Positions 7,811 to 9,552 of a stretch of DNA of 64,000 nucleotides are shown here, piece by piece. The translations under genes and the position numbers were made by a program. Below the pieces are notes generated by a model. It ran no database searches, had not been told where the DNA came from, and was given only the letters and a program-made list of their open reading frames with translations. Numbering within the stretch: the first letter of the stretch is position 1; every line of letters begins with the position of its first letter. Origin of the DNA: Saccharopolyspora montiporae (GTDB taxonomy: Bacteria > Actinomycetota > Actinomycetes > Mycobacteriales > Pseudonocardiaceae); the NCBI RefSeq assembly GCF_015209505.1, contig NZ_JADEYC010000004.1, positions 45,671 through 109,670 on the forward strand. Reading direction: 5' to 3'.

Positions 7811-9552
7811 CACGGCGACGTGCGCGCCGTTGACGGTGATTCGGTCGGGGAGCTCGGCGAGGCCGAACCCCGCTGCGAGCCAGCGGTGCGCGGCCGAGGC
7901 GAACAGCGCGGGATCGCTGTCGCCGGTCGGGTCGGTCAGCCGGACCTGCTCGCCGTCCCGGGTGCGGACCGTGCAGGAGGTGTCGTCGACGGCTGCGGCC
8001 AGCTGGAGCCCGCGCCGGGTGCGCAGCGCGTCGCGCAGCCAGTGCTCGGCGTGCGGTCCCCAGTCGTCGGCGTCGTCGAGCACCAGGACGTCGGCCGCGG
8101 CCGATAACCGCCTGCCGGGGTGCGTGACGGTCGTCAGCAGATGGGCGCCCGAAGGAACCTGGTGCGGGGACAGCATTTCCGCCCGGAGCCGGTGCACGCG
8201 CAGGTCGGGGCCGGGGCGCAGCTCCCCGGTCGCGTACAGCGCGCTCGGCCGCCACCTCAGGCGCCCGGTGGGCAGCCCGGTCGGCGGATCGGCCGGCACC
8301 GGCGGTTCGCCGCGCGGTTCGTCCAGGCCCAGCATCGCGTAGCAGCGCGCCCGCACGCGTTCGGCCGCTCCGTCCGGGCACGAGGTGATCAGCCGGTGCG
8401 CCTCGTGCTGACCTGCGGCGGAGGTCATCGCCTTGCGCAGCTGGGGCGGCAGCGGTTGGTCGCGGCGCAACCGGGGCGCTCGGGCGCCGAGCGCGGCCAC
8501 CGCGGAATCCGGGGCCACCGCGTGGTCCGGGAAGTGCCCGAACAGCACGGGGACCCCGGCGCCCGCCGCGTAGGCGGTCACCGAACTGTGGTCCCCGATG
8601 AGCACATCGGCGGCGGCTACGGCGGCTCGCCAGCCCCGCTCCGGCGCGACCAGCAGCAGGCCGGACCGGACGTGCGGCGCCAGCATCCGGTGCACGGTCT
8701 CCGGATCGTGGTGCGCCGACACGTTGGGATGGATGATCGCCAGCACCCGGTACCGGTCCACGTCCAGTTCGGCGAGGAGTTGTTCGTACAGCCCGAATTG
8801 GGAGCCCAGCAACGAGTCCGGCCGCCATGTCGTGCAGAGGGCGACCACGGTGCGCTCGTCGTCGGCGCCCAGTGCGCGCCGGTACCGGTGGCGCATCGGC
8901 AGGCTCGCGCGCAGCCGGTCGTAGCAGGGGTCACCGCTGACGAACGCGCGCTCGGCCGCCTCGGGGACCGCGGCGCGCAGCCGCTCCCGCTGCTCGTGGT
9001 GGGCCACCGCGATGGCCGAGGGGATCGTTTTCCCGTCGTGCAGCAGCTGATCCGGCGAAAGCCCGAAGGTTTCCGGTTTCCGGTTTCCGGTTTCCGGTTT
9101 CCGGTGTCCGGTTTCCGGTTTCCGGTTTCCGGTTTCCGGTGTCCGGTTTCCGGTTTCCGGTTTCCGGTTTCCGGTGCGATCTTAGTGTAGCGGATCCCGT
9201 GCGGAAGAGACAGCACCGGAATGTCTACATCGGACAAACCGCTGTGGCCGGCCGTGATGAGCAGCGCGAAACCGAGATTCGGCTCGTGCGCGGCGACCGG
9301 GTGGATCCCGCGCTCCGCGAACAGCTCGTGCAACCCGTTCGGCAGCGGATCCGCGCCGTTCCACCGGTAGTGCAGCTCGACCCGCGGATCCCCCTCGAAC
9401 ACGTCGACCACGTCCAGCAGCCGCGTCATCGCGACGACGTTGTCGGCCAGCACCAGCACGTGCCGGTCCGCGGAGAACGTGCGGTTGTCCGGGTTCTTCG
9501 CGCGCAGCGCGCGGTCCGCGGGCGGTGCATCGGGCTCGGAAGAACTGGCCAT
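7805..9552 (-). pseudogene. GT-B-fold polymer transferase (CDP-glycerol glycerophosphotransferase-like), frame broken by a 7-bp repeat tract; probable phase-variable gene in OFF state
   Basis: Two halves of one protein lie in different frames. From ATG 9552 the first 127 or so residues (RHVLVLADNVVAMTRLLDVV ... VLSLPHGIRYTKIAPET) end in the heptamer tract at 9068-9172. The second half, FGLSPDQLLHDGKTIPSA followed by GDPCYDRL, LCTTWRPDSLLGSQF and VLIGDHSSVTAYAAG, is open in another frame to the stop at 7805. GDHSSV corresponds to the (S/T)DYSSV nucleotide-sugar region of TagF-like enzymes. Counting bases, gain of one heptamer (16 units) or loss of two (13) would give one protein of 584 or 577 residues; 15 units, as here, shift translation into a frame that stops at 8617. 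Likely role: transfer of a polyol-phosphate or sugar to a surface polymer. Assembly error in the repeat is the alternative. Confidence 0.75.
9068..9176. repeat. Tandem heptamer tract, 15 units of GGTTTCC (GGAAACC on coding strand)
   Basis: Fifteen contiguous 7-bp units run from 9068 to 9172, followed by a partial GGTG. Thirteen are GGTTTCC; units 6 (9103-9109) and 11 (9138-9144) are GGTGTCC, so units 6-10 and 11-15 form two identical 35-bp blocks, evidence of block duplication. Because 7 is not a multiple of 3, each unit gained or lost changes frame; because no frame of the repeat contains a stop it is always translated as GNRKPET repeats. Confidence 0.97.

Follow-up and report, generated by a model that had tools for sequence, protein, structure and literature searches.

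The window analysed here, a stretch of 64,000 nucleotides from Saccharopolyspora montiporae (contig NZ_JADEYC010000004.1), contains a tandem array of heptamers inside a predicted transferase gene that converges on an NB-ARC/TPR gene (Table 1). The array comprises 15 full units (GGTTTCC or GGTGTCC) at 9068-9172 followed by GGTG, as read from a 51-contig, 92.5%-complete draft assembly, in agreement with the fifteen 7-bp units that an earlier note on this DNA had reported at 9068..9176. Tandem Repeats Finder lists it with period 7, 15.4 copies, 96% matches and a score of 202, while its remaining three rows for the window score 62, 56 and 51, and all seven matches to (GGTTTCC)3 in the 4.16-Mb genome lie inside this array. 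Units 6-10 and 11-15 form identical 35-bp blocks, as the note had pointed out, and block expansion is therefore likely. Both parts of the gene are open, the N part from 9552 and the C part from 9007 to 7805 (ORF list), and the N half aligns with homologues at the same place (tblastn). The distance between the H codon of HGIRYTK and the G codon of GDPCYDRL is 266 nt, which leaves a remainder of 2 when divided by three and places the two parts out of register. The note's description of two preserved halves in different frames thus holds, as does its arithmetic that 13 or 16 units restore a single frame and 14 or 15 do not; its statement that the repeat has no stop in any frame was confirmed for the coding-strand frames of the unit.

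Table 1. Features of the transferase locus and its convergent partner (positions refer to the window).
Feature	Position	Strand	Remarks
NB-ARC/TPR gene (AfsR-like, no DNA-binding part found)	5474..7810	plus	convergent partner; true start may be 5717
Transferase gene, C-terminal part	7805..9067	minus	register differs from N part; PF04464 match in 7805-9007
HP codons of IIHPNV	8726..8731	minus	predicted second catalytic-histidine motif
GDPCYDRL codons	8912..8935	minus	conserved motif downstream of array, register yardstick
Heptamer array, 15.4 units, inside transferase gene	9068..9176	minus	predicted slippage switch
Transferase gene, N-terminal part	9177..9552	minus	from ORF list; ends in HGIRYTK and a few residues before array
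HGIRYTK codons (HGxxYxK motif)	9181..9201	minus	predicted first catalytic-histidine motif
TACACT, a TAYAMT element (-10-like)	9184..9189	minus	just before array; last T (9184) is a synonymous third base

In public records, the transferase is annotated as a 'hypothetical protein', in some cases with a start placed midway through the gene. With the profile PF04464 (cut-off 22.1 bits), the C half of the window gene scores 27.0 bits and the array-free homologue P0051 37.6 bits; P0019 remains below the cut-off with 15.6 bits, and P0002, P0005, P0025 and P0061 give no match to this profile. A PDB search with a profile of 58 aligned homologues returned no match at E 0.01, and P0051 obtained two weak hits, neither of them TagF. 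In the same 58 homologues, H, G and K of HGxxYxK are each conserved at 90% or more, and the HP motif (H254 and P255 in P0002) occupies invariant columns. These two motifs, which are predicted to correspond to the catalytic-histidine motifs of TagF, are separated by 128-166 residues in four of the five proteins measured, the search pattern having missed the fifth. For TagF itself, the catalytic residues H444 and H584 are reported, 140 residues apart (PMC5974469). As the array lies between the two predicted catalytic histidines, loss of frame would remove activity if the motifs correspond. The family resembles TagF-like CDP-glycerol glycerophosphotransferases (PF04464) in the Pfam match of the window's C half and in the similar spacing of HG..K and HP, but is remote from them, with no PDB sequence match and with several homologues outside the Pfam profile. 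The note had described the gene as GT-B/CDP-glycerol-transferase-like and as acting on a surface polymer; the TagF-like assignment is plausible but weak, and the surface-polymer role is one that we infer.

Homologous sites in actinomycetes were surveyed with one pipeline over 232 loci, which yielded 231 sites, of which 202 are distinct. Loci came from named genomes and from collections in which each species is represented by a single genome, and 60 of the further places listed were included as regions; relatives were found by a contig search with an alignment, whereas a scan with the window's C half found none. The distinct sites were divided into clear arrays (score of at least 20; 105 sites), weak arrays (score 12-19; six sites, counted neither with the clear nor with the array-free sites) and array-free sites (91). 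The loci L086 and L111, whose sites contain runs of N, were set aside, and the 4-bp GCCA array of L086 is outside the counts. With clear arrays at 105 of 202 distinct sites, the observation made in the note extends to a family-wide hot spot. The arrays have periods of 7 (79 sites), 8 (19), 10 (5), 5 (1) and 14 (1, a doubled heptamer), none of which is divisible by three, and, counted from the first nucleotide of the HGxxYxK H codon, start at a distance of 21-33 nt in 104 of the 105 cases (49 nt in L049). They are built from 48 different repeat units, and DNA-level units of relatives include CCGGAAGC (8 bp), CCGGAAG and CGGAGAC. Genome G006 carries a 5-bp GCCGA array at the site, a repeat that is also visible in the S. 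pogona protein P0006, and full-length homologues from the same genus show different repeats at the same spot. Genome G014, likewise a Saccharopolyspora, has a site sequence identical to that of the S. soli K220 contig. The reading frame is maintained at 69 and lost at 36 array sites, a ratio biased towards in-frame genes by the ranking of candidate loci by protein match. Array-free sites are in frame in 90 of 91 cases, L116 being the exception. Programmed frameshifting or recoding was rejected as the main reading because all three registers occur among the array sites (69, 26 and 10), and a simple in-frame linker repeat was rejected because no triplet period occurs among the 105 arrays.

The periods also bear on the possibility that the site is a neutral hot spot, at which a flexible linker tolerates repeats and frame loss is accidental and without benefit. 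The array does lie in a linker of variable length in the alignment, and slippage alone can expand repeats. However, a tolerated linker should admit triplet periods, and the count here is 0/105; among 19 further tandem repeats detected in 62 of the loci (797 kb), 13 have a period that is a multiple of three. Moreover, none of the 48 units contains a stop in a coding-strand frame, in comparison to a mean of 6.6 and a minimum of 1 among letter-shuffled units (1000 rounds); on the other strand, four of the 48 contain one. Considering also a synonymous T that comes and goes with the array, as described below, a neutral origin of the pattern is decidedly unlikely.

Several observations concern the distribution of the module. 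A second homologue in the genome of the window (L241:3796) is array-free and carries HGAGPHK and GDPCLDRL, and at least three homologues are found in several genomes. Actinomadura sp. OS1-43 (L045) has two transferase-partner pairs in tandem, one with an array of 8-bp units in frame and the other with 7-bp units out of frame. Given such tandem pairs and several homologues per genome, switches could combine. The module is also present on large linear Streptomyces plasmids of 308-676 kb (L242-L246) and can therefore travel; carriage by phages was looked for with P0002 against 50,697 phage records, without a match. An array-free homologue in Streptomyces hoynatensis is preceded, immediately before its match begins, by an 8-bp array, GCCGGGGA (score 126; L102:5766-5900), which could represent a different type of switch, located at the start or promoter of the gene.

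Near-identical sisters, and also two strains whose flanks are identical, differ in copy number and frame. The Streptomyces anthocyanicus plasmids NZ_CP109229.1 and NZ_CP109572.1 are identical over 330 nt before and 1000 nt after the array (98.5% over the 7.6 kb compared). The former holds 17.6 units and is out of frame, the latter 9.6 units and in frame, a difference of eight units, and the records annotate the transferase as a short versus a full CDS; the out-of-frame strain is NBC 01668 and the in-frame strain NBC_01372. Three further plasmids, two from S. coelicoflavus and one from a Streptomyces sp., with flanks 93.6-96.1% identical, present all three registers. C flanks share 93.7% identity or more in 11 sister pairs. 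Array length differs in every one of these pairs and the ON/OFF state in seven, and two more differ in register; sites identical from motif to motif had been merged, which renders sisters with an identical array region invisible in this comparison. In five sister site pairs, which come from four genome pairs, the difference is exactly a single 7-bp unit and the frame changes with it; L042/L162, with flanks 99.4% and 100% identical, is one of these five. For S. spinosa, an N-half cluster of four members (representative P0101) matches the N part of strain NRRL 18395 with 100% identity over 126 residues, and the end of P0101 fits six units versus four in NRRL 18395, a count deduced from protein and for the representative only. 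In NRRL 18395, a transposase-like insertion of about 0.9 kb (L062, approximately 5100 to 6020) splits the gene beyond its in-frame array. Full-length and split records of S. griseocarneus are only 91-93% identical and are supportive at most. A within-species pair of S. rosea, suggested by a C-half protein 99.3% identical to strain A22 that would indicate an out-of-frame strain, was not counted, because the corresponding N-half record is incomplete and continues after HGIRYTK with sequence other than the array. An exotic unit replacement was rejected for L023/L024, which have C and N flanks 94.9% and 98.8% identical and different units, since the L023 array holds intermediate units and the change needs only a point change and homogenisation.

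These comparisons are difficult to reconcile with an assembly or sequencing artefact, in which the array length would be wrong and the window gene simply in frame. A 109-bp array in a 51-contig draft genome can be miscounted, and this could apply to the window's count, but not to the family pattern: 36 of 105 array sites are out of frame in many genomes, and complete plasmid records show both states. An artefact is thus given almost no weight. The note had considered that all relatives might hold exactly 15 units; unit numbers differ among them, and its phase-variable reading is supported by the frame differences between near-identical sisters and by the identical-flank strain pair.

Alternatively, the array could have broken the gene once and left a decaying pseudogene, with both halves on the way out. 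The window allele is indeed out of frame, and the NRRL 18395 gene also has its transposase-like insertion. However, the decay elsewhere in the gene that the note had named as a counter-sign is not seen, the window's C part being stop-free for 376 residues from GD, and close sisters are in frame. In addition, pairs in which both members are OFF keep C-part pN/pS values of 0.09-0.23 (n=4, three of them sharing locus L024). Two pairs were left out of this calculation, L170/L211, in which two L211 sites share a key and the ratio is meaningless, and L042/L162, with only five changes. Such low values are expected if alleles that are now off are often on, and the pseudogene is regarded as very improbable. 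On a FastTree phylogeny of the 202 sites (local supports; array defined as a score of at least 12, 111 rows), at least 19 gains or losses of the array fall on supported branches, the best tree requires 22, and 80 changes are required for the unit state.

The array is accompanied by the TAYAMT element, whose last base is set by a synonymous codon choice. T is the third base of the codon preceding the K of HGxxYxK in 101 of 105 array genes, four being without it, versus 3 of 91 array-free genes. Where this codon encodes Asn, array-free genes have AAC 40 times and AAT once, and array genes have AAT 53 times and AAC twice. On the tree, T and array change together in a mean of 16.6 of 19 independent pairs and are opposed in none. 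The stop-free units and this T that comes and goes with the array point to selection, which appears to act on switchability and not on a particular repeat, because the switch is kept at the same codon while the repeat has been replaced repeatedly. TAYAMT has the TAnnnT form of a -10 element and ends 8-12 nt before most arrays. For 110 array genes, third-position A/T amounts to 0.30 over the 30 nt preceding the motif and to 0.47 within it; the corresponding values of 33 similar array-free genes are 0.13 and 0.15, and the differences are smaller further upstream. The same T also creates TAA in another register, which does not account for the wider A/T rise.

It can be hypothesized from these features that TAYAMT is the promoter of a separate C-half protein, both halves of a split enzyme always being made and the array serving mainly as a leader. 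The -10 form, the distance of about 8-12 nt to most arrays and the raised third-position A/T would fit this proposal, as would the C-half proteins that records annotate from internal starts. Nevertheless, a -35 box is missing: a search for a -10 hexamer with a -35 at 16-18 nt gave no promoter-like site in window 8900-9650, and no -35-like base preference was seen by eye in the aligned columns. No conserved start codon was found between array and GD, start-type codons there being no commoner in array genes than at the same positions of array-free genes, and Shine-Dalgarno-like strings are rarer in array genes (35/111) than in array-free genes (53/90). Furthermore, homologues without an array consist of one continuous in-frame gene, and a split enzyme would have no need of periods other than triplets. 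A split enzyme is consequently very unlikely. The predicted role of TAYAMT is that of an internal -10-like element or of a site at which strands open and slippage is promoted. A bolder proposal is that TAYAMT and the array together constitute a dedicated mutation cassette, in which the promoter-like or strand-opening site at the edge would drive slippage, at least 19 gains or losses of the switch, involving a succession of new out-of-frame units, would have taken place at a single codon, and the paired NB-ARC sensor would tie surface switching to attack; this is put forward tentatively and is doubtful as a whole.

In the window, the stop codons of the transferase gene and its partner abut (ORF list). 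The partner gene carries NB-ARC (31.8 bits, cut-off 23.5) and TPR_12 (40.9 bits, cut-off 30.1) domains, and with the AfsR equivalog model NF053617 it reaches 196.5 of the 1430 bits required. From its domains, it is inferred to be a sensor or regulator. Where 2.5 kb or more was available on each side (124 distinct sites), a convergent relative of the partner is present at 110 and was not found at 14; relatives in other placements at these sites are divergent (34) or upstream on the same strand (1). The partner accompanies sites with arrays (56/61) and without arrays (63/72). In the S. anthocyanicus plasmid pair, only a 216-bp CDS is annotated at its place, which counts against a strict transferase-partner pairing. 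A known anti-phage defence system was rejected as an identity for the module, as PADLOC gave no match for P0002 and P0019 and only a generic TPR model for the partner. Just upstream of the transferase gene, at 9586-16044 on the minus strand, lies a cluster for one-carbon metabolism and breakdown of methylated glycines, whose ORFs we take to be formate-tetrahydrofolate ligase-, methylenetetrahydrofolate reductase-, GcvT- and dimethylglycine dehydrogenase-like. Parts of this cluster are kept beside the transferase gene in several Saccharopolyspora; the formate-tetrahydrofolate ligase-like neighbour is found upstream at five of seven named Saccharopolyspora loci and at none of five from other genera.

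Taken together, the heptamers at 9068-9176 probably form a slipped-strand switch that turns a predicted TagF-like surface-polymer transferase ON or OFF; in this assembly, the gene is out of frame. Replication slippage would add or remove units, and one of the three registers would give the whole enzyme, in which the two predicted catalytic-histidine motifs, HGxxYxK and HP, are joined and polymer is added to the surface. Out of frame, translation would enter a nonsense tail and the enzyme would be lost. The resulting population would be mixed in its surface polymer and would withstand attacks directed at the surface, the most likely attackers being phages dependent on the polymer, a step that is presumed for this family. 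A sensing or regulatory role is predicted for the NB-ARC/TPR partner.

Pathogens provide the most familiar examples of contingency switches. NeuO has its repeat in the coding region and represents one enzyme with one repeat unit, prophage-borne, in a pathogen. It is described as a heptanucleotide-switched O-acetyltransferase of the E. coli K1 capsule (PMC13001214, PMC8653822). The family described here shares with NeuO coding-region heptamers in a surface-polymer enzyme, but comprises 48 units in actinomycetes, is chromosomal and plasmid-borne and belongs to another enzyme class. The closest functional precedent is reported for C. jejuni 06875, in which frame loss in a CDP-glycerol:poly(glycerophosphate) transferase gene blocks adsorption of phage CP39 and leads to resistance (PMC8949473). 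The likeness lies in frame loss in that gene class; the differences are a T8 tract and other mutation sites in a Gram-negative capsule locus, and no partner or DNA element is described in the portion of that account consulted (PMC8949473). In Streptomyces coelicolor, pglX of the Pgl system is reported to switch by a G tract (PMC4365076). It has in common with the present family the occurrence in Streptomyces, reversible frame switching and a phage context, and differs as a homopolymer in the methyltransferase gene of a defence system. For Mycobacterium tuberculosis, phase variation by tracts and promoter repeats is described (PMC12817950), another case of actinobacterial switching by repeat number, here with homopolymer tracts or promoter repeats and in other genes. 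Among the titles and abstract beginnings listed in searches of the open-access literature, none concerned a repeat-switched gene of this family, which is weak evidence of absence.

The family thereby offers a case in which one actinomycete enzyme retains a switch at a fixed codon despite repeated exchange of the repeat itself. If this reading is true, nature provides here a system for studying how slippage rates in high-GC bacteria depend on repeat length, unit and flanking DNA, and surface or phage phenotypes that are unstable in Streptomyces and Saccharopolyspora would be explained in part. The links to an NB-ARC partner and to a conserved DNA element raise further questions.
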